Assembly (NCBI RefSeq): GCF_024362205.1
Contig: NZ_CP101462.1
Coordinates: 2,565,001-2,629,000 of the forward strand
DNA length: 64,000 nucleotides
DNA from: Exiguobacterium aurantiacum
Lineage (GTDB): Bacteria > Bacillota > Bacilli > Exiguobacteriales > Exiguobacteriaceae
Direction of reading: 5' to 3'
A program made the position numbers and the translations under genes. Below, piece after piece: positions 1,567-42,706 of the stretch (its first letter is position 1; each line of letters starts with the position of its first letter). The notes below the pieces were generated by a model. That model did no database searches. It saw nothing but the letters and a program-made list of their open reading frames with translations, and was not told where the DNA came from.

Positions 1567-3108
1567 TTATTCCCACTCGATCGTTGCTGGTGGCTTCGAT
1601 GTGATGTCGTACAGGACACGGTTGACGTGACTGACTTCATTGACGATACGGACCGAAATCTTTTCGAGGACATCCCAAGGGATGCGGGCCCAATCCGAAG
1701 TCATTCCGTCAATCGATGTGACAGCACGGACACCGACCGCATAGTCATACGTCCGCTCGTCGCCCATGACGCCGACTGAGCGAATTGGTGTGAGGACCGT
1801 GAAGTACTGCCAAATGTCACGTTCGAGACCGGCTTTCTTCACTTCTTCACGTAAAATCGCGTCCGACTCGCGCACGATTTCAAGTTTCTCTTCCGTGATT
1901 TCACCGAGGACACGAATGCCGAGACCCGGACCCGGGAACGGCTGGCGCCATACGATATAGTCTGGCAATCCAAGCTCTGTCCCAAGTTCACGTACTTCGT
2001 CTTTGAAGAGCGTGTTGAGCGGCTCGATCAACGTGAAGTTCATATCTTCCGGAAGTCCACCGACGTTATGGTGTGACTTGATTGTTTGAGCCGTATCCGT
2101 CCCGCTCTCGATAATATCCGTGTAAAGCGTACCTTGAGCAAGGAAGTCCATATCCACAAGTTTCGACGCTTCTTCGTCAAACACATAGATGAACTCGTTG
2201 CCGATGATTTTACGCTTTTGTTCCGGATCTGAGACGCCGGCAAGTTTCGACATGAAGCGCTCCTGCGCGTCAATCTTGATGACTTTCATGTTGAAGCCGT
2301 CCGCGAACGTCTTCATGACGCTGTCCGCTTCATTTTTACGAAGCAAGCCATGGTCAACGAACATACACGTCAACTGGTCACCGATGGCACGATGGACGAG
2401 CGCTGCGACAACTGATGAGTCGACACCGCCTGACAACGCGCAAAGAACTTGCTTGTCGCCAACGATTTCACGAATCTTCTCGACTTCGATGTCGATGAAG
2501 TTTTCCATTGACCACTCACCTTTGGCCCCACACACTTCATAAATGAAGTTCTTCAAGATGTCATTCCCGTACTCTGAGTGACGGACTTCCGGATGGTACT
2601 GGACGCCATACATTTTGAGGTCGTCGCTCTTAATCGAAGCGACCGGACATGATGGGTTCGTCCCGTCGACGATGAATCCTGGCGGAGCTTCCATGACGAG
2701 GTCGCCGTGGCTCATCCAAACGGTATGTTCCACTGGGAGGCCCTTGTAGAGCGCCGAGGCTTCTGGTGTTGAGAAGAGCGTCGCTTTCCCGTATTCACGA
2801 TGCGCAGCCCGCTCGACACGTCCACCGAAGTGATGCGTCATGAGTTGCATGCCGTAGCAAATTCCGAAAATCGGAATCCCGAGCTCGAAAATTTCTGGGT
2901 CACAGCGGTAGGCGCCTTCCGCGTACACACTGTTCGGTCCACCCGAGAAAATGATTCCCGCCGGAGCGAGTTCACGAATCTCAGCAGCGGTCATCTTGTG
3001 GGAATGGAGCTCACTGTATACCCCAAGGTCACGCACACGACGTGTGATTAACTGGTTGTACTGGCCTCCAAAGTCGAGCACCAAAATCATCTCTTGTTCT
3101 ACTTTCAC
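1567..3108 (-). CDS. guaA: GMP synthase, glutamine-hydrolysing
   Basis: Converts XMP to GMP with glutamine and ATP, the last step of guanine nucleotide synthesis, in the cytosol. The class I glutaminase domain comes first: nucleophile Cys84 in GICYG, with His172 and Glu174 in YHPE. The ATP pyrophosphatase domain follows, with the P-loop SGGVDSS near residue 226, and then the C-terminal dimerisation domain ending in PPATIEWE. I chose the GTG start at 3108, giving 513 residues, the length of the Bacillus enzyme. It follows a strong AGGTGGAGG site. The reading frame stays open further upstream, but that part overlaps the riboswitch and is not coding. Confidence 0.97.
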
Positions 3109-3136
3109 AAAACCTCCACCTTTCTGCCTTCTTCTC

Positions 3137-3191
3137 AAAAAAAGAGCGAGCCTCTCCCACGGATTCACCAAACCGAAGAAGAAGCACGCCC
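3137..3191 (-). terminator. guaA riboswitch terminator
   Basis: On the minus strand GGGCGTGCTTCTTC can pair with GGAGAGGCTCGCTC (14 positions, one U-U mismatch, some G-U), directly followed by seven T. The 5' arm can instead pair with the 3' side of the aptamer, giving a clear on/off switch. Confidence 0.82.
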
Positions 3192-3217
3192 TTTTCTGTG
3201 TATACGAAACGTGCTCC

Positions 3218-3283
3218 TTCATAGTCGGTCCATTTACGGTGGTCCGGTAGAGACTCTCGCGCCAATTCGCGAGTATATACGAA
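3218..3283 (-). ncRNA. Guanine-class purine riboswitch aptamer (guaA leader)
   Basis: The minus strand shows TTCGTATATACT opening the P1 helix, a P2 arm CTCGCG/CGCGAG, the J2/3 element GAGTCTCTAC, a P3 arm GGACC/GGTCC-like with loop GTAAATGG, and the closing CGACTATGAA. C before TATG indicates guanine. It lies about 110 nt upstream of the guaA start, so the enzyme that makes GMP is under guanine feedback. Confidence 0.94.
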
Positions 3284-3341
3284 GGAATGCTGTTCAATTA
3301 TCTAACTAATGCGTCTATCTTACTGTATGCATCCGCCTACT

Positions 3342-5438
3342 TCAACTCATAATTCGGCGAATCATGATTTTCCAATATTCTTTATATTTTGAATTTGGCG
3401 TTTTTTCGGCATAGATGCTCTGTTCAAATAAACGGGTCAATCGCGTCATTTCGGTCGACTCATAATAAGCATCGACTTCCGCGGCGAGTTCCGATGGCGT
3501 GCGTCCATCAACTTTGAAACCTGCCCCACGAAGCCGCTTAACGAGATAGCGATGCATGGCGACGAGTCGGTTCTCATTCAACGGGCGACGTGTCCACCAA
3601 AGCATCATCACGAGACGTTCGATTGTCTTCCGGTTCCACACAAGAACAGCGACTGCGAAGACAATTAAAATCCAACCCCATACCGGCATATTCCAATTCT
3701 CGGTTGCCGCCTCCCCTGATGTGACATCGTCGAGTGCCAAATCTTCCTGTGGACGGTTCGTCGGTTCATTGTCTTGCGACGCCTGTGGATCGTTGGCCGC
3801 TGGATCTTCTGCATTCGCTTCGTCCTCCGTCTCGATTTGAAGCAGGTTGGCGTCAGTGAAACTGATGGTGGCCTCGAGCGGGACCCAGCCCGCACCTTCG
3901 ACGAAGTATTCCACCCATGAGTGGGCGTGTCGGTTCCGGACGGTATACTCCTCTTCACCTTGGATAATCCCGCGTGCATCACCCATCGTGAAGCCTTTGA
4001 CCCAACGCGTCGGCACTCCCCTCGCCCGGAGAAGGACGGCAGCCGAGGTCGAGAAGTTGTCGCAGTAACCAATCAACGTATCAAACAAAAATTGATCGAC
4101 GTAATCGGTATCCTCTTCAGGGACAGCCACGTCTTCCGTATTGTACTGGAAGTCCCCGGTTTGGAAGTAGTCCTGGACCGCTTGGGCCTGATCATAAGGC
4201 GTCTCACTGTCGGAAGTGATGTCGGCCGACAAATCTCGAACCCGATCCGGAAGCGAGTCCGGCAATTGCAAGTATGCTTGTCGCTCTTCTTCCGTCAACG
4301 TCGTCACTGGCTCATTCAACGCCAATTGCTCTTCCGTGAAGGAAGGGACACTGTAGCGCAATTGAATCGTTTGCGGCGTCGTTTGGCCGTCATTGTCGAA
4401 CACGATTTTCCCGGACGGTCGGATGTGAATCGTCTCGTTCGGGAACGGTTCTTCGATATTCCCGACTCGGAATTCGGTGCCGTTGTCCGTCTCGGTCGCC
4501 TGCGGATACTCTCCGCCATACGGGACGAACGTCTGGCGCCGGTCAAATCGGAGTAACGCCTGTTCCGGTGTCGTGTCGACATCTTGGTCGACGAGTTGCC
4601 CACGGTTGTAGTCCGAGTCGAGGACCGGGGACTCGACCCAGCCTTTGCCCGTGTAAATTTCTTTTGATTCGATGCGCCAATAGCGTGCCGGTACACCACG
4701 GGCGATGAAGACGATGCCGTCATCTTGCTCAAACGGCCCGCCGAGTTGCTCATCGTTTACCCCATAACCGACTCGACCACTACCTGATCCCTCATCGTTC
4801 ACGGCGTTTTGGAAACTCGTCGTCAACCGGTCAGACCAATCGCCTTCGAGCGTCGGGGACACGCTCGCGAGCGCCAACACAACCGATGCGAGGAGCGCGA
4901 TGCTGACATAACGGACGAGCGACTTGCTCGGCCGTTTCGCCAAATCGGTGACGAAGAGTAAAAAGAGTGACGCTAAAATCGCAAGGAGAATCTTCCCTTC
5001 TCCGTCATAAAGCGTCCACGTGTCAAAGTACGCCATCAATCCGAGCGTCGAGACAATCATCCCGAGGACGAAACCATAGCTCGGATACGTCCGCCCGACC
5101 AAGATGGCGAATAGAACACCAATGAGCGCCATCGCCGAGAAGAAAATCGCCTCTTCTGGCAAAGCTCCGCTCAGCACCCCGCTTAAATCGTCTAGCCAGA
5201 GGCCAAACCAGTCCAAGACACTACCGTGGTACACGTATAAGACAACAAAGAAGTTGAAGACGACCACCGTGATGAAGCCATACCAAGGGAGTAAACTCGC
5301 AAACATCGGTACGAGCAACAAGAACAAGAACGGCCAATTGACGTCGAACGTCGTGCTCCCGACAATCGGCTCGACCCAAAACGACAACAAGTAGGCGGCA
5401 AGCGCCGTATAGACAATCCGTTTCACCCACATTGTCAT
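3342..5438 (-). CDS. yebA: Transglutaminase-like membrane protein (TgpA/YebA family)
   Basis: A 698-residue membrane protein: several N-terminal transmembrane helices (DUF3488-type), a large extracellular transglutaminase-like domain, one more helix (MPVWGWILIVFAVAVLVW), then a cytoplasmic DUF4129-like tail. The domain keeps the Cys of YCDNFSTSAAVLLRARGVPTR and the His of NRHAHSWVEYF. Its natural substrate is unknown. It overlaps the DUF58 gene by ATGA, and with the MoxR gene forms the same three-gene unit found beside guaA in Bacillus, which suggests assembly or maturation of an envelope complex (inference). The start ATG follows GAGGTG. Confidence 0.88.
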   Translation of the reverse strand: MTMWVKRIVYTALAAYLLSFWVEPIVGSTTFDVNWPFLFLLLVPMFASLLPWYGFITVVVFNFFVVLYVYHGSVLDWFGLWLDDLSGVLSGALPEEAIFFSAMALIGVLFAILVGRTYPSYGFVLGMIVSTLGLMAYFDTWTLYDGEGKILLAILASLFLLFVTDLAKRPSKSLVRYVSIALLASVVLALASVSPTLEGDWSDRLTTSFQNAVNDEGSGSGRVGYGVNDEQLGGPFEQDDGIVFIARGVPARYWRIESKEIYTGKGWVESPVLDSDYNRGQLVDQDVDTTPEQALLRFDRRQTFVPYGGEYPQATETDNGTEFRVGNIEEPFPNETIHIRPSGKIVFDNDGQTTPQTIQLRYSVPSFTEEQLALNEPVTTLTEEERQAYLQLPDSLPDRVRDLSADITSDSETPYDQAQAVQDYFQTGDFQYNTEDVAVPEEDTDYVDQFLFDTLIGYCDNFSTSAAVLLRARGVPTRWVKGFTMGDARGIIQGEEEYTVRNRHAHSWVEYFVEGAGWVPLEATISFTDANLLQIETEDEANAEDPAANDPQASQDNEPTNRPQEDLALDDVTSGEAATENWNMPVWGWILIVFAVAVLVWNRKTIERLVMMLWWTRRPLNENRLVAMHRYLVKRLRGAGFKVDGRTPSELAAEVDAYYESTEMTRLTRLFEQSIYAEKTPNSKYKEYWKIMIRRIMS

Positions 5439-10360: not shown

Positions 10361-10530
10361 ATATCGTCGCTTCTCTTTTTTGCAGGAATGTTTTGACAGT
10401 ATCTAGAAAAAGAGTAACACCGAGAACCTGAGGCAACGTCACTACACCCTTCCCATTATTCTCGCAGGTAAATTTTAAAAAAAGAGCTATACTAGTAAGG
10501 AAGAGACAGACAAGATTGGAGGTCATGGAG

Positions 10531-10848
10531 TTGGATCATCGCGACCCACCGTTTTCAGAAGTAGGCGACTTTAAACAATGGGGCCGTTTTGATATAAACG
10601 TGCCACTGCAGGGCGGGCAAGCTGAACTTCAGACTGCCGTGTCGATTGTAAGAAATCATATTCCGTTGCGATTAGGTGGATTTTATATCATCGCCAGTGA
10701 AGATGGGATTTTGACGAGCGGCTCACACGACGCTAACTTACAAAAGCACATTATTCATTTGCTCCAACAAGTGCAAATGGGTCATGTGGAAGATGAGGCA
10801 TTGATGAACGAGCCGATTTGGACGATTCATTATTTCACCACTCCATAA
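10531..10848 (+). CDS. Small protein of unknown function
   Basis: About 105 residues, soluble, no recognised domain; a middle stretch HIPLRLGGFYIIASEDGIL is well structured and hydrophobic in alternation. The start is uncertain: GGAGG at 10518-10522 is only 2 nt from the ATG at 10525 but 8 nt from a TTG at 10531, so the TTG is favoured. A TATACT -10 hexamer lies at 10488-10493. Followed by its own terminator, so it is a monocistronic gene. Confidence 0.65.
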   Translation: MDHRDPPFSEVGDFKQWGRFDINVPLQGGQAELQTAVSIVRNHIPLRLGGFYIIASEDGILTSGSHDANLQKHIIHLLQQVQMGHVEDEALMNEPIWTIHYFTTP

Positions 10849-10910: not shown

Positions 10911-12173
10911 TTAATCGATGTGAGACATGATATCGATGACTTTTTCGTAGTACTCGGTTGCCAATTTATACTTCCCATTACTTCGAAGTTCTCTGGCTAA
11001 CCATAGAGAGTATTTTTGCATATACACATAATCATTATATTTTTCGAAATAGTGAACCGCTTCTTTCAGCGATTTAATCAACTCAAGCTTATCTGGAACT
11101 TGATAACAATTTTTATAAATTTCAAAATGATGATCAAATTCTTCTAATCCCGTTCGATCTCCTTTGATTTCGTACCCTTTGGATAACCAGTTTAGTATTT
11201 CTTCTACGTTGTTATAGTTTGTATATCCTTCAATCAACGACACGACGCTGTATAGCTTACTCTTTACTTCTACTTTATAATCAAAACTTTGCATAAAGTA
11301 TTCAAGGGCTTTTTCTTGATCGCCTAAAGAAGAATAAATTTCACCCATATTATTATACAGCATTCCATAGTAGTCTTTCATAGTTGTGGCACTTATCACT
11401 TTTACCGCTCTATGGTAATGCGCCAATGCTTCCGTAAAGCGTCTTCGTCGTTTAAAGGCTAGCCCAATAATGATATGGCATTCAACGATTCTTTCTAAGA
11501 AGAAATGTTCTTGAAAATAATCAAGCGCAAATTTCACATTCTCGATTGCTTGAAGGTAATCTGTAAATTTATAATACATCCCGCCCATGATATATCGCAT
11601 ATCTGCTATTTCCCATATTGGTAGACTTGAGTGTGGAAGTTGTTCGTTCAGTTCTTCAAGTAATTCTAGTGATTTTTCTTTTTCATTCTCATTAAATAGC
11701 TTTAGACTCTTCATTAGAGTATATCTAAGGCCAGCTTCACGATTCAGCTGTTCCTCAATCCAACCAATTTCAGTAATGTACCTATTTTGTCCCCCAGGCA
11801 TAATATCAAATCTAGCTAAAGCCAATAGCAAGCTAATATAGAGTTCCTTCGATTGATTGACTACGGGATTAGATAAATACTTTTCTACTTCCTGCAACTT
11901 ACCTTTATCTTTTCTTGTTAAAATTGCATCTCTTAATATTTCTTCAATTTCAGCCCTAACTTTTTCAACTTGTTCGCTGAAGTCATAGTAAAGAGGAACT
12001 TCAATTCCAAGCCTCTTAAAAATCATCTCTAGTACTTCTTCACTAGCGGAAGTTTGGTTGTTCTCGATTTTACTTAAGTAAGATATTGAACAAATGCCTC
12101 TAGCTAAGACTGACTGCTTCATATTCCTACGCATTCTCTCAATTTTTATAAGGTTTCCGTAGTTGTATTCCAT
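10911..12173 (-). CDS. HTH-TPR transcriptional regulator, RNPP-like (PlcR/NprR type)
   Basis: 420 residues. An XRE-type helix-turn-helix occupies roughly residues 5-60 (NLIKIERMRRNMKQSVLARG, then SISYLSKIENNQT). It is followed by about 330 residues of alpha-helical repeats with TPR-like spacing, such as EALAHYHRAVKVI, NMGEIYSSLGDQEKALEYFM and ATEYYEKVIDIM. Length and layout match receptors that bind imported signal peptides (PlcR, NprR). It is divergent from an unknown gene and a repeat-peptide precursor gene, its likely ligand source (inference). The ATG at 12173 is preferred; a TTG at 12182 closer to AAGGGG is possible. AT-rich compared with its neighbours. Confidence 0.85.
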   Translation of the reverse strand: MEYNYGNLIKIERMRRNMKQSVLARGICSISYLSKIENNQTSASEEVLEMIFKRLGIEVPLYYDFSEQVEKVRAEIEEILRDAILTRKDKGKLQEVEKYLSNPVVNQSKELYISLLLALARFDIMPGGQNRYITEIGWIEEQLNREAGLRYTLMKSLKLFNENEKEKSLELLEELNEQLPHSSLPIWEIADMRYIMGGMYYKFTDYLQAIENVKFALDYFQEHFFLERIVECHIIIGLAFKRRRRFTEALAHYHRAVKVISATTMKDYYGMLYNNMGEIYSSLGDQEKALEYFMQSFDYKVEVKSKLYSVVSLIEGYTNYNNVEEILNWLSKGYEIKGDRTGLEEFDHHFEIYKNCYQVPDKLELIKSLKEAVHYFEKYNDYVYMQKYSLWLARELRSNGKYKLATEYYEKVIDIMSHID

Positions 12174-12437
12174 CCTAAGCAATAGCCCCTTCGCCCTAAT
12201 TATTAGCGTTTTTTTAAATATATATAGTCTAGAAACAATCGTACCAGGAAAATCCTCTTCAAAAAACGATATTTTTGCTGTTTTCCCACTATTATTTTCC
12301 CAACTGGTAGCAGTCCGTTAGACTCTTTAATCATGATAGAATTTAACTAGTAAATAAAAACCTTTACGTTTTTTTAGGTAAAACGATTCATTAAAAATTA
12401 ATCATAGGATTTATATTTTCGGAGGTGTATACATCAG
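12174..12437. promoter_or_regulatory. Divergent intergenic region of the peptide locus
   Basis: 264 AT-rich bases between the regulator and the acyltransferase-like gene. It contains a direct repeat TTTTCCCA at 12281-12288 and 12295-12302 (14 nt apart, so not quite on the same helix face) and an inverted repeat ACCT/AGGT around 12360-12378. Either may be a regulator site; no clear -35/-10 pair could be assigned. Confidence 0.4.
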
Positions 12438-13115
12438 ATGGGAAAATTAAATTTTTTACTTGCGGAAGATTACATTAAACCTAAAATTTATTTCCAATCT
12501 AAACAAGCTCCACTGTTTAATACGTCTTACTCCTATGCTGATCGCAGTCAGTTTGAGGGGCTAGAGCATTTGACCCAATTGTTGCGTTCTCCTAAAGGAT
12601 TTATACTAAACGCTTTTCAAATTGACTACTATCAAACTTTGCCACAATTGATTGCTAGAACACTTAAAGAAAATCGATCATATAAAAAACTATACATTCT
12701 CGGACCGGAACTGTCTCTCTCTATTCTAAAGCGCAGTTCAAAAACCGTCTATGAGAAACACTTTCAAGAATTTGGTTATATAAATGTAGAACGGGATTTC
12801 CAAGGCGTTTTGCGTCAATGTTTAGCTTTATTACAAGAAGGACACATCTTATACATTCTTCCTGAAGCGTCAATTTGTTGGCGCCCAGAATATTTCCAAC
12901 CATTAGAAAACACACTCACCCCTCTATGTAGCACATTACTCAGTCAAGAAGCGCACGTCCCAATTTTATCGTCTTCTACTAAAGAAGGTTCTGATAAAGT
13001 CATCTTGCATGAACCGAATATGCCACAACAGTATGTAGGAGATTTGGAGTCGCGTATTTACCAACAATCAGAATCGGTATATAATTTACTAGAATCTCCA
13101 GTTTCTGACTACTGA
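12438..13115 (+). CDS. Unknown protein, weakly like LpxL-type acyltransferases
   Basis: 225 residues, no signal peptide or membrane helix. The C-terminal half (GHILYILPEAS, then a stretch ending STLLSQEAHVPILSSST) has the spacing seen in lysophospholipid/lipid A acyltransferases, where a proline-glutamate segment is followed by a buried substrate helix and a VPI strand. No HxxxxD catalytic motif is visible, so activity is doubtful and the family call is tentative. ATG follows TCGGAGGTG. Only 44-59 nt separate it from the repeat-peptide precursor gene with no terminator between, so they are probably co-transcribed. Confidence 0.6.
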   Translation: MGKLNFLLAEDYIKPKIYFQSKQAPLFNTSYSYADRSQFEGLEHLTQLLRSPKGFILNAFQIDYYQTLPQLIARTLKENRSYKKLYILGPELSLSILKRSSKTVYEKHFQEFGYINVERDFQGVLRQCLALLQEGHILYILPEASICWRPEYFQPLENTLTPLCSTLLSQEAHVPILSSSTKEGSDKVILHEPNMPQQYVGDLESRIYQQSESVYNLLESPVSDY

Positions 13116-13174
13116 GTACCATTACACTAGAGATCGTAGCTTTCAACACACCAATATATTTGATGGAGGGATTC

Positions 13175-13429
13175 ATGATGAAAAAGATTACAGGTCTGTT
13201 ATTCATCGCAGCAGCAGTATTACTATTAGGCAGCTCAATCAAACCAATGGGTGAAGACTTCCCACGCCTCGCTAAGTTTGATACACCAATTCAAACGTTT
13301 GGTGAGGACTTCCCACGTCTCGCTAAATTTGAATCAACGATTAAACCAATTGGTGAAGATTTCCCACGCTTGGCAAAAGTTGAATCGACAATCAAACCAC
13401 TCGGTGAAGATTTCCCACGCCTTGCATAA
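13175..13429 (+). CDS. Secreted precursor with four copies of the octapeptide GEDFPRLA
   Basis: 84 residues. It starts with a Sec-type signal (MKKITGLLFIAAAVLLLGSS). The rest is four 17-residue units, each containing GEDFPRLA; the last copy ends exactly at the stop codon. Linkers between copies vary in sequence while the octapeptide does not, and its codons differ only synonymously. This is the architecture of an exported peptide signal processed to several identical products. With the HTH-TPR regulator upstream, the inferred role is a quorum-sensing pheromone. The ATG at 13175 is 7 nt from GGAGGG; ATG 13172 also fits, whereas ATG 13160 lies inside the ribosome site. Confidence 0.82.
   Translation: MMKKITGLLFIAAAVLLLGSSIKPMGEDFPRLAKFDTPIQTFGEDFPRLAKFESTIKPIGEDFPRLAKVESTIKPLGEDFPRLA
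13250..13426 (+). repeat. Four in-frame tandem copies of a 51-bp unit
   Basis: Octapeptide codons start at 13250, 13301, 13352 and 13403, exactly 51 bp apart. Between copies the GEDFPRLA codons change only at silent positions (GAA/GAG, GAC/GAT, CGC/CGT, CTC/TTG/CTT, GCT/GCA). Confidence 0.97.
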
Positions 13430-13438
13430 TCCTTTAAA

Positions 13439-13466
13439 AGAGACGCCCTGCGCGTCTCTTTTTTAT
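13439..13466 (+). terminator. Terminator after the peptide precursor
   Basis: AGAGACGC/GCGTCTCT hairpin followed by TTTTTT, 10 nt after the stop codon. Confidence 0.92.
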
Positions 13467-13607
13467 TTCCGAAACGTTGGAAATAATATTTTTGAAAAAA
13501 AGTCAAACAATTTACATATTAACCTCCATTTTTTTCTTGTTTCCTTATATAATAACGAAGACATGATAACAATTTTTTATATCATCACAAAAAGGAGCGG
13601 ATCTTGT

Positions 13608-14939
13608 TTGAACATATCGAAACCATCTTGGAATCTTAAACTGCTACTTAGCTCGTCTCTAGTTTTAGGAGGAATGGTTGTCGCTCCATCTGATTTGACA
13701 TCAAAATACTTCAACACAAGTCAAGTTGAAGCTGCCTCTACCTATACAACTACTGCTAACTTGAACTTACGTAAAAGTGCATCCACATCTGCCACAGTGC
13801 TCCTGACTATCCCTAGCGGTAAAGCCGTCTCTTACCTCGGCACTTATGGCTCTTGGTACAAGGTCAGTTACGGTGGGAGAACCGGGTATGTTTCTTCACA
13901 GTATGTAAAAGTCTCAACAGCAAGCACTGTGACTACTGCTTCTTCAAAGAAGTACACTACGACTGTCAACTTAAACCTACGTAAGAGCGCATCTACGTCC
14001 GCTACAGTTCTCGTGACAATCCCAAACGGTAAAGCCGTCACTTACCTCGGTACATATGGCTCTTGGTACAAAGTCAGTTACGGTGGAAAGACTGGCTACG
14101 TTTCTTCTCAATACGTTAAAGTTTCAACGACTAGCACGACAACGACAAGTTCTACAAAAACCTACACGACTACCGTCAACCTGAACCTACGCCAAAGCAC
14201 CTCTACATCCGCTACAGTCCTCGTGACAATCCCAAGCGGCAAAGCTGTCACCTATCTCGGCACTTATGGCTCTTGGTACAAAGTCAGCTACGGTGGCAAG
14301 ACTGGATATGTGTCTTCCCAATACGTAAAGGTTTCAACAACGACGACACCGACGACGTCCACAGGAACGGGACGGACGATTGTGATCGATGCCGGACACG
14401 GCGGAAATGACCCTGGAGCTGTCTACGGCTCAACATACGAAAAAGTGATTGCGTTCGATATTGCCGCACGTCTCGCGAGTACGCTCTCGAATACATATGG
14501 CTATAACGCACGGATGACACGCACGAACGATGTCTACTTGTCACTCGCACAACGCGTCGAATTGACGAAGTCGTATAAAGGCAGCGCCTTTGTCAGCCTT
14601 CACGCCAATTCATCAACGAATACGTCTTACCACGGCCATGAAGTACTCGTACCGACCGGGGAAAGCTATACGACGAACCCATACATCTCGGCCAGCCGGA
14701 GTTTAGGCGCGTCCATCAACCGTGAACTGGGAGCACGCATCCCGACAATCCGCAACCGCGGCGTGAAATATCAAAACGTTTACGTTGTCGGAAAGAACAG
14801 CGTCCCTTCGACACTCGTCGAATACGGATTCATTAGCAATGCGAACGACCGCTCGCATTTGACGAGCACCACTTACCGGCAACGGATGGCAGACGCCACC
14901 GCTTCTGGAATTCATCAATTCATGAGCACTTATAAATAA
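13608..14939 (+). CDS. Secreted N-acetylmuramoyl-L-alanine amidase with three SH3b domains
   Basis: 443 residues. Signal peptide ending near SQVEAA, then three nearly identical bacterial SH3 domains (each about 65 residues, core NLNLRKS...GSWYKVSYGGKTGYVSSQYVKV in parts) that bind cell wall. The Amidase_3 catalytic domain follows: zinc ligands in DAGHGG, the Glu of STYEKV and SLHAN, with catalytic Glu in TLVEYGF. It cleaves the bond between muramic acid and L-Ala in peptidoglycan. The start is a TTG at 13608, 10 nt after GGAG; an in-frame ATG at 13563 has no ribosome site. It follows the peptide gene but is separated from it by a terminator. Confidence 0.92.
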   Translation: MNISKPSWNLKLLLSSSLVLGGMVVAPSDLTSKYFNTSQVEAASTYTTTANLNLRKSASTSATVLLTIPSGKAVSYLGTYGSWYKVSYGGRTGYVSSQYVKVSTASTVTTASSKKYTTTVNLNLRKSASTSATVLVTIPNGKAVTYLGTYGSWYKVSYGGKTGYVSSQYVKVSTTSTTTTSSTKTYTTTVNLNLRQSTSTSATVLVTIPSGKAVTYLGTYGSWYKVSYGGKTGYVSSQYVKVSTTTTPTTSTGTGRTIVIDAGHGGNDPGAVYGSTYEKVIAFDIAARLASTLSNTYGYNARMTRTNDVYLSLAQRVELTKSYKGSAFVSLHANSSTNTSYHGHEVLVPTGESYTTNPYISASRSLGASINRELGARIPTIRNRGVKYQNVYVVGKNSVPSTLVEYGFISNANDRSHLTSTTYRQRMADATASGIHQFMSTYK

Positions 14940-41392: not shown

Positions 41393-42706
41393 TCAGTCAA
41401 CTGTAATATCTGGGTAAGCGTTCTTCGCTTGTTTTTTGAACTCTTCGATCGCTTCTTCTTTCGACTTCTTACCTTCTACGTACTGAAGGACTGAAGCGCC
41501 GTAGAGCGTGTCGAGCTGTTGGTCATATTTCGTGACGATGCCTGGTGTGATTTCATCCGCTTGGTCGAGGAAGAAGTCGTAGTTGTTCTGTCCGCCGAGG
41601 AACTCATCGCTGAAGTCGTCTTTGATTTTGTCGGTAACTGGTTTGTAAGCGAGGACGTCGCCTGTCTCTTCAGCCCAGCCAGTCAAGAACTCTTCGTCTT
41701 GTGTCATGAGCTTAACGAAATCGTATGCAGCTTCTTTGTTTTTCGATCCTTCGTAAACGCCGAGCCATGTGCCGCCCCAGAAGTACGGGCTTGGACCGTT
41801 CGTGACTGCCCAGTCACCGGCTGTGTCTTTCGCGCTGTCTTTCAAGACGCTGTGGAGACCCCATGTTGGGAGGACGTAAGAGAAGACTTGTGTCTCTGTC
41901 TCTTTGCCGCCTTCTTTAACTTTGATTGGCTTCGACATGCCTTCGAACCAAGATGGTGACCATTCTGGTGCGAGTGCCGTATATTGTTTCTCACGAAGCT
42001 CTTTCGCATAGTCCATGTAGTTGATTTTGTCTTCTGTCAACACGAGTTCGTTCTTGTCGTTTACCCATGCTTCTGGGTTCGCGCCTTGTGAGAACCAACG
42101 GATCGCGCCTTCGTCTGGGAACATTTTGTAGCCTTTTTGCTTCATCTTCTCAGCAACTTCGAAGACGCCGTCCATCGAGCTCATCATGTTGCCGATTTCA
42201 GTCGGGTCATCTGTGCCGAGAACTTCTTTCGCTAAGCTACGTTTGTAGTAGACGCCACCTGGTGTCGTTTGCCATGAGAGCGCGCGCACGTTGCCATCTT
42301 TGTCTTTCCCAAGGTCGAAGACGTAAGGGATGTAGTCGTCTGAGATTTCATTGACGTTGTAAGGCTCGTCTGAAAGGTTTTCCCAGTAGCCTGCGTCAAC
42401 CCATTGCTTGAGGAACGCGATCTCACCTGTGAAGACGTCCGGTGCCCCAACGCCGCTTTCAAGTGCCGGCTTAAGTTTTGTCGGATAGTCGGCGATTGGA
42501 ACGATTGTCAATTCAACCTTGACGCCGTTCTTCTCTTCGTACGTTTTGATTGGTTCTTTGAGCTCGTCCGTGAACGACCAAACTTTGAGGACGTCATCTT
42601 TAGATCCTGACTCAGAACCTGAAGTTCCTTCGTCGTTTGAGCATGCGCCCAAGACGCCGACTGATAGAGCTCCGATTGAAAGTAAGCTGACTAATTTTTT
42701 ACGCAT
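41393..42706 (-). CDS. Sugar ABC transporter substrate-binding lipoprotein
   Basis: 437 residues. Lipoprotein signal with lipobox VLGAC (Cys20 or so), a Ser/Gly-rich linker, then a family 1 solute-binding fold (DVLKVWSFTDELKEPIKTYE in part). Captures a sugar, likely a beta-glucoside given the operon. The ATG at 42706 is used because the earlier in-frame ATG lies within the ribosome site AAGGATGG. No ATPase gene is present in the operon. Confidence 0.93.
   Translation of the reverse strand: MRKKLVSLLSIGALSVGVLGACSNDEGTSGSESGSKDDVLKVWSFTDELKEPIKTYEEKNGVKVELTIVPIADYPTKLKPALESGVGAPDVFTGEIAFLKQWVDAGYWENLSDEPYNVNEISDDYIPYVFDLGKDKDGNVRALSWQTTPGGVYYKRSLAKEVLGTDDPTEIGNMMSSMDGVFEVAEKMKQKGYKMFPDEGAIRWFSQGANPEAWVNDKNELVLTEDKINYMDYAKELREKQYTALAPEWSPSWFEGMSKPIKVKEGGKETETQVFSYVLPTWGLHSVLKDSAKDTAGDWAVTNGPSPYFWGGTWLGVYEGSKNKEAAYDFVKLMTQDEEFLTGWAEETGDVLAYKPVTDKIKDDFSDEFLGGQNNYDFFLDQADEITPGIVTKYDQQLDTLYGASVLQYVEGKKSKEEAIEEFKKQAKNAYPDITVD

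Follow-up and report, generated by a model that had tools for sequence, protein, structure and literature searches.

A 64,000-nucleotide stretch of the Exiguobacterium aurantiacum genome (contig NZ_CP101462.1, positions 2,565,001 to 2,629,000; hereafter the window), from a host genome of 3.15 Mb in two contigs, carries at 10911-13429 a locus in which a receptor gene with helix-turn-helix (HTH) and tetratricopeptide repeat (TPR) domains is divergent from the genes for a 225-residue (225-aa) protein and a short precursor holding four copies of the octapeptide GEDFPRLA. We read this locus, with a probability of roughly 0.8, as an RRNPPA-type peptide quorum-sensing cassette, NprR-like, with a multi-copy precursor and genus-wide pherotypes. 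Peptide quorum sensing had been proposed in an earlier note made from the DNA letters alone, and the proposal is now supported by the anatomy and co-occurrence of the genes, selection on the peptide, co-divergence of peptide and TPR domain, a cassette mosaic observed in one species pair, an RRNPPA-type receptor fold by prediction, and distant relatives. The features of the locus are as follows.

10911-12173, minus strand: HTH-TPR receptor, 420 aa from its ATG (open reading frame, ORF; HTH_3 and TPR in Pfam; HTH at residues 1-65, nine helix pairs at 66-420).
12246-12251, plus strand: AGGAAA, which may form the upstream half of an inverted operator, 44 nt before the TTTCCCAA box.
12296-12303, plus strand: TTTCCCAA box, proposed receptor site (intergenic alignment of relatives).
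12334-12342, plus strand: extended -10 element (TGATAGAAT); the -35 is poor (alignment of 18 genomes).
12421-12426, plus strand: ribosome binding site of the 225-aa gene (from the sequence).
12438-13115, plus strand: 225-aa protein, LPLAT acyltransferase fold by prediction (ORF; AlphaFold2, AF2, model).
13165-13170, plus strand: ribosome binding site of the precursor (from the sequence).
13175-13429, plus strand: putative pheromone precursor with four copies, 84 aa (83 aa if begun at 13178; ORF).
13250-13273, plus strand: GEDFPRLA copy 1 (this and the next three from unit and codon analysis).
13301-13324, plus strand: GEDFPRLA copy 2.
13352-13375, plus strand: GEDFPRLA copy 3.
13403-13426, plus strand: GEDFPRLA copy 4, at the C-terminal end.
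13436-13462, plus strand: terminator-like hairpin with T tail, 3' of the precursor (terminator scan).

The coordinates, counts and divergent layout given in the earlier note were reproduced by ORF analysis. Receptor and 225-aa gene are separated by 264 bases, and the precursor follows the 225-aa gene after 59 bases (first ATG) or 62 bases (second ATG), the start at 13178 being likelier because relatives align at the second methionine. Terminator-like sites number four in the region, against 2.0 (standard deviation 1.3) in shuffles, and a hairpin similar to that 3' of the precursor is seen by eye in most relatives.

In the 84-aa form of the precursor, GEDFPRLA begins at residues 26, 43, 60 and 77, so that the four copies exactly 17 residues apart (17, 17, 17), the last at the C-terminus, are confirmed in translation. 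The silent codon variation that the earlier note had described in the octapeptide, set against linkers varying in sequence, is likewise borne out: the units differ by 19 silent and 0 replacement codon changes (6 pairs) and the linkers by 6 silent and 15 replacement changes (3 pairs). Summed within precursors over the genus, the counts are 359 silent to 37 replacement for units and 86 to 225 for linkers, and a Fisher value for such codon differences is no true probability because the pairs are not independent. Unit identity averages 0.946 within precursors (100 pairs) and 0.518 between them (1916 pairs), for 16 precursors with 64 units, a set that omits G017, whose protein is identical to that of G007, and the incomplete G002; linker identity within these precursors is 0.532 (50 pairs). 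Since none of 5000 reshuffles reached the observed within-precursor unit identity and the precursor recurs in 18 of 19 genomes, the uniformity of the repeats is far beyond chance. Codon differences and unit uniformity across the 16 precursors together support selection on the peptide, as had been supposed.

These data also bear on a reading that we find hardly credible, namely that the precursor serves at the cell surface as an exported protein of repeats, kept uniform by gene conversion among tandem repeats and taking no part in signalling. Such a process would suit G013, whose linkers are almost identical as well (3 codon differences), as after a recent duplication; in most precursors whose linkers can be compared, however, linkers change mainly by replacement and units mainly or only silently, with the exception of the G012 and G016 linkers, in which silent changes slightly exceed replacements, and single-copy relatives retain the motif.

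Precursors of the genus hold 2 to 5 units (counted with a slightly widened pattern), and the peptide differs between species, being GEDFPRLA in G000 and G014, GEELPRLG in G007 and G017, ADDFPRLT in G010 and, in further species, GEDLPRLT, AEEAPRIT, ADEMPRIG, VDEMPRIG, VDEMPRLT, VDDMPRIV or AEERPRIV. Proline and arginine are invariant in the 64 units, although the unit-finding pattern itself requires both. Of the 64 units, 57 are preceded by F, L, M or Y, and 42 of the 48 non-terminal units are followed by K, a regularity that suggests a pattern of processing. At 83-84 aa the precursor lies inside the 10-100 aa range of RRNPPA propeptides, and its N-terminus consists, by eye only, of MKK and a hydrophobic stretch in the 16 aligned precursors. 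The last copy deviates in G004, G005, G006 and G018 (VDELPRLV or SEELPRLI; loci L051, L052, L054 and L057), and precursors of this kind may, to judge from their sequence, emit two messages. The G009 precursor (L059) holds two AEERPRIV units and then a deviant last copy, NESMPRIV, and that of G008 (L060) is degenerate, with two unlike units and shifted spacing. Against PHROG the precursor gave weak matches (E 1.7e-4 to 5.2e-4). Matches on plasmids came from 26 records (25 from Bacillus; E down to 5e-7 among the matches listed), and the two that were inspected, both lying antisense to an annotated gene, were rejected as repeat artefacts.

Precursor, receptor and 225-aa gene are all present in the same 18 of 19 Exiguobacterium genomes, the window's own included, and all three are lacking in G011. 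The search for repeats beside HTH-TPR genes that the earlier note had suggested thus returned precursor and regulator together in 18/19, and the finding that it had said would refute it, a precursor homologue without an HTH-TPR neighbour, does not occur in the 19 genomes, the G002 pair spanning a contig break. In a sister genus of the same order (19 genomes), precursor and 225-aa gene were found in 0/19 and no receptor match was obtained at E 1e-15. The 225-aa family occurs, in a class-wide draw of 398 genomes, solely in those 18 (E 0.001), and a search of the named genome collection placed 15/15 loci in Exiguobacterium. The order kinase, 110-aa gene, receptor, 225-aa gene, precursor, SH3-amidase and GNAT is kept in the 16 genomes with spanning contigs, and is interrupted by contig ends in G004 and G002.

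Further support comes from the joint divergence of receptor and peptide. Partial correlations of protein distance with peptide distance, conditioned on the neighbouring kinase (partial Mantel permutation), were obtained for 15 of the 18 genomes, with the omission of G004 (kinase off the contig), G008 (degenerate precursor) and G002 (split). They amount to 0.79 for the TPR domain, 0.50 for the HTH domain and 0.20 for the 225-aa protein, and to -0.03, 0.03 and -0.02 for the flanking 110-aa neighbour, amidase and GNAT genes. By these distances, the TPR domain co-diverges with the peptide beyond the background, and the contrast to the flanks is plain. In one species pair, G010 (ADDFPRLT) and G017 (GEELPRLG), the 110-aa gene and amidase are 99% identical, the TPR domain is 68.5% identical and 5 of the 8 peptide residues differ; nucleotide identity in bins runs at 85-94% up to the 3' end of the receptor, 60-75% across the cassette, 83% where the cassette ends and 81-96% beyond. 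Between G000 and G007 the corresponding values are 66-77% for the receptor, 85-88% for the 225-aa gene and 77% for the precursor bin, while G000 and G014, which share a peptide, have 82-91% in the receptor and no comparable drop. We read this pattern of identity as a sign that pherotype alleles were exchanged or changed rapidly together.

On the structural level, the AF2 model of the receptor (predicted local distance difference test, pLDDT, 84.5) contains nine helix pairs after an HTH part that is poorly modelled. Its best fold matches are apo NprR (5dbk_B; Z 29.2 over 345 residues, root-mean-square deviation, rmsd, 3.4), RapI (28.9) and Rap3T (28.7), followed by LGN, an unrelated TPR protein and the best non-RRNPPA match (22.2), and AimR (17.5-19.8); Foldseek agreed in returning Rap and NprR. 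In a sequence profile search the best RRNPPA matches are NprR (2.2e-10) and Rap3T (3.1e-9), which must be taken as partly generic TPR similarity because designed consensus TPR proteins score higher (4e-29); no PlcR chain was found at E 0.01, and identity to solved NprR is 16-18%. At 420 aa, the receptor falls within the size and domain range of RRNPPA receptors (250-500 aa, TPRs, optional HTH) and has the HTH and nine non-degenerate TPRs of NprR in clan B, not the five TPRs of the PlcR type in clan A. The "PlcR/NprR layout" of the earlier note therefore stands for a 420-aa HTH-TPR regulator with NprR/Rap-like fold and profile, and falls for PlcR, given the nine helix pairs. In the published scheme nine-TPR QssR, NprR and Rap form clan B and five-TPR PlcR clan A (PMC12700828), a placement by which the modelled receptor may be expected to work like an NprR-type member. 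A phage origin of the receptor was considered and rejected, with no match in 50,697 phage records (E 1e-5) and one weak HTH match in viral contigs.

In the promoter region, the TTTCCCAA box starts exactly 38 nt before the extended -10 (TGnTA) start in 18/18 genomes, and AGGAAA or a near form (AAGAAA in G001, ATGAAA in G002), a pattern chosen after the alignment had been seen, lies 43-45 nt upstream of the box. The -35 has 0-4 of 6 matches across the 18 genomes, and a general promoter scan, which demands a -35, omits the extended -10 site. Scanned for box plus -10, the window returns the locus as its only full match, the next best having 2 mismatches at 42305, and five letter shuffles of the window gave no match at up to 2 mismatches. 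The extended -10, the weakness of the -35 and the constant spacing of the box suit an activator-dependent promoter, and the receptor would then be the activator of the 225-aa gene and precursor. It is possible, if unlikely, that the receptor is instead a peptide-relieved repressor of the operon, or that it acts by protein contact like NprR and Rap and the boxes serve another factor. NprR and Rap relatives are known to work on partner proteins and the TTTCCCAA box by itself is not evidently palindromic, yet the promoter architecture just described favours activation, and the HTH domain is retained in 18/18 aligned receptors.

Beyond the genus, near full-length receptor matches were found in another Bacilli family (E 7e-57 to 1e-72), 48 of whose 200 genomes match the receptor at E 1e-30, and weaker ones in further families. 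From 77 loci fetched, a part of all matches, 78 distinct receptor ORFs of at least 400 aa were collected; just downstream of 58 of them lies a short ORF that has a basic start and carries an acidic-x-P-x motif (for instance DQLPKLF, EEEAPRPT, EDDKPKIT or VDAKPEIT), as compared with 29 of 2120 placements made at random; the motif was defined after the first examples had been seen. The other 20 lack a pattern match, although for L194, L205, L206 and L219 a candidate is visible by eye and the pattern proved too narrow. Repeats recur here: L206 (G489) has five IQDKP[DE]IT units beside the receptor, L197 (G425) four LDEVP[DE]IA units in a precursor starting 251 bases downstream of the receptor, and L145 three SEPDHPKIV units, and on a Mesobacillus foraminis plasmid (L237, 2754-3167) a precursor with repeated DEEFPPPLAP stands beside a receptor relative. 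In Priestia koreensis FS-1 a plasmid encodes a receptor relative of 24.7% identity, and the ORF after it contains EEEFPEPTV; two plasmid NprR-NprX systems, possibly the same genes, are described in this strain (PMC10075063). The Exiguobacterium octapeptide seems, from motif and gene order, to belong to a wider peptide class, its precursor standing behind another gene on the other strand. As side observations, the L237 cassette adjoins thioesterase and phosphopantetheinyl transferase genes, and in L136 (G298) the interval 2223-3655 encodes a second HTH-TPR receptor, distinct from the first, with a short ORF behind it that ends in THGLGGTDVGPPHTRG.

In the cycle that we propose, the precursor would be exported through its N-terminal signal sequence, and extracellular cutting would free identical octapeptides or a slightly shorter core, several copies per precursor raising the signal yield. 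An oligopeptide permease would re-import the peptide, and the host genome has seven matches to SBP_bac_5, the Opp-type oligopeptide-binding protein. Inside the cell the NprR/Rap-like HTH receptor would take up the peptide in its TPR groove, as fold and co-divergence suggest. With peptide bound, the receptor probably attaches to the conserved TTTCCCAA sites, and to AGGAAA, between the divergent genes, and would activate the extended -10 promoter that serves the 225-aa gene and the precursor, closing a positive feedback loop. The peptide differs in most species, and receptor and precursor alleles that diverge or are exchanged together would give rise to pherotypes.

Several observations weigh against this reading. 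A regulon search gave nine genome matches, seven on one strand and two on the other, and none of them has an extended -10 at the spacing seen in the locus; with no other promoter carrying the box there is no visible regulon. The search used one gap-free 11-base form, for which a reversed control pattern gave 4 matches, and was narrow, since that form, with its final C, fails to pick up even the site of the locus itself. The partial Mantel permutation, which gave p 0.003 for the 225-aa protein, is known to be liberal, and because the HTH domain and the 225-aa protein also follow the peptide, part of the signal reflects cassette linkage and not binding. In G000 and G007 the start of the downstream amidase is also low, at 64%, so that low identity there extends past the cassette. 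In G012 (L055) internal stops interrupt the receptor frame close to its 3' end and the five-copy precursor is intact, which may be natural loss or a sequencing error. Finally, charge covariation with the residue after proline was examined for 63 receptors with K/R peptides versus 10 with D/E (five others; peptides of L194, L205, L206 and L219 read by hand), and the best column in the expected direction, D205 (1.23), is matched by one of opposite sign, K258 (-1.18); E222 was suggestive as well, phylogeny confounds the comparison, and it carries no weight in the reading proposed here.

The window's copy of the intervening 225-aa protein has no family in Pfam, NCBIfam or PHROG. A Pfam scan of 18 members found no acyltransferase, its yield being weak matches to four unrelated families, none of them in more than 2 members; against PDB sequences all matches are weak (profile E 0.41 and 0.63, single sequence 0.65). 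Its AF2 model (pLDDT 77.7; predicted template modelling score, pTM, 0.76; residues 1-24 poor) nonetheless matches PatA (Z 12.1, 158 residues, rmsd 3.5), PlsC (10.0) and LpxM (9.8), with other folds from 7.2, and Foldseek returned LpxM (2.8e-5, TM-score 0.50), so that by prediction the protein has an LPLAT acyltransferase fold. It shares that predicted fold with PatA, PlsC and LpxM and differs from these acyltransferases in having neither a Pfam acyltransferase match nor a histidine at residues 45-77, absent in 18/18. Motif I, H-x4-D/E, which we take to be catalytic in LPLAT proteins, would probably fall within these residues, and the usual H-x4-D therefore seems to be missing. It is improbable, as a specific proposal, that the operon encodes a novel LPLAT-fold family with altered catalysis that is itself involved in the signal, a whole genus thus using a swappable cassette linked to membrane state; the role of the protein could be, for example, lipid or acyl binding, escorting or modifying the pheromone, or serving as sole output of a closed loop.

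A multi-copy precursor behind an uncharacterised protein with a transferase fold would also fit an exported peptide with antimicrobial or toxin-like action, which the 225-aa protein would modify or give immunity to and the regulator would simply control. This we consider very unlikely, as peptide and TPR domain diverge together, the units are short with a net charge of -1 in 60/64, and the 225-aa gene was found only in the genus, while beside distant receptors a short ORF bearing a related motif persists.

Among known systems, the quorum-sensing cassette proposed here comes closest to NprR-NprX. The receptor shares with NprR the HTH and nine TPRs, NprR being its best profile match and tied with RapI for the top fold score. 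The NprX peptide is SKPDIVG, and the Exiguobacterium octapeptide is unlike it; the Exiguobacterium precursor is, moreover, divergent and lies behind a third gene, not directly downstream as in the NprX type. Pherotypes, too, occur in PlcR-PapR. PlcR-PapR likewise pairs an HTH-TPR activator with a secreted peptide (PapR7, ADLPFEF; PMC6568020) but has five TPRs against nine here (PMC12700828). Rap-Phr shares the nine-TPR fold and multi-copy propeptides (PMC11343458), whereas Rap lacks the HTH (PMC12700828) that the Exiguobacterium receptor has. The earlier note had regarded a multi-copy precursor as unusual, and this does not hold: identical copies, up to 8, are reported for Rap-Phr (PMC11343458), and atypically large propeptides with repeats for NprR (17/17), PlcR (3/15), AimR (3/11) and Rap (5/311) (PMC9765709). 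Copy number is therefore not the novelty; what is apparently new is the divergent layout with receptor and precursor split, the way the promoter is built, the pherotype cassette and the intervening LPLAT-fold protein without the expected catalytic histidine. Published detection looks for receptor and propeptide as neighbours within -60 to 400 bp (PMC10075063), an arrangement seen in 58/78 distant relatives (post hoc motif search), while in Exiguobacterium the start codons lie ~1.0 kb apart, divergently, with one gene between.

No literature joining Exiguobacterium, quorum sensing and RRNPP was found, nor any of four peptide strings searched, in a coverage that leaves most subscription papers and supplements outside; broader searches returned nothing on such a system among the top matches listed, and in the accessible part of PMC10837837 quorum sensing appears only in the references.

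Around the cassette, a conserved ORF of 105-110 aa without a clear family match (10516-10848, plus strand) adjoins it in the genus, with ~1 kb extra between this ORF and the receptor in G005 (L054) relative to other genomes. An amidase-like ORF with SH3-type repeats, recognised by eye (13605-14939, plus strand), lies in the same place in relatives whose contigs reach that far.

If the reading is true, Exiguobacterium has a peptide language in 18/19 of the species genomes examined, spoken in at least ten dialects at one chromosomal site. Its split layout is likely to escape detectors that look for the propeptide next to the receptor (PMC10075063). Since the two co-diverge and seem to be exchanged as a cassette in a background that is otherwise similar, the way in which signal and receptor change specificity jointly would become directly testable with natural pairs, G017 and G010 among them.

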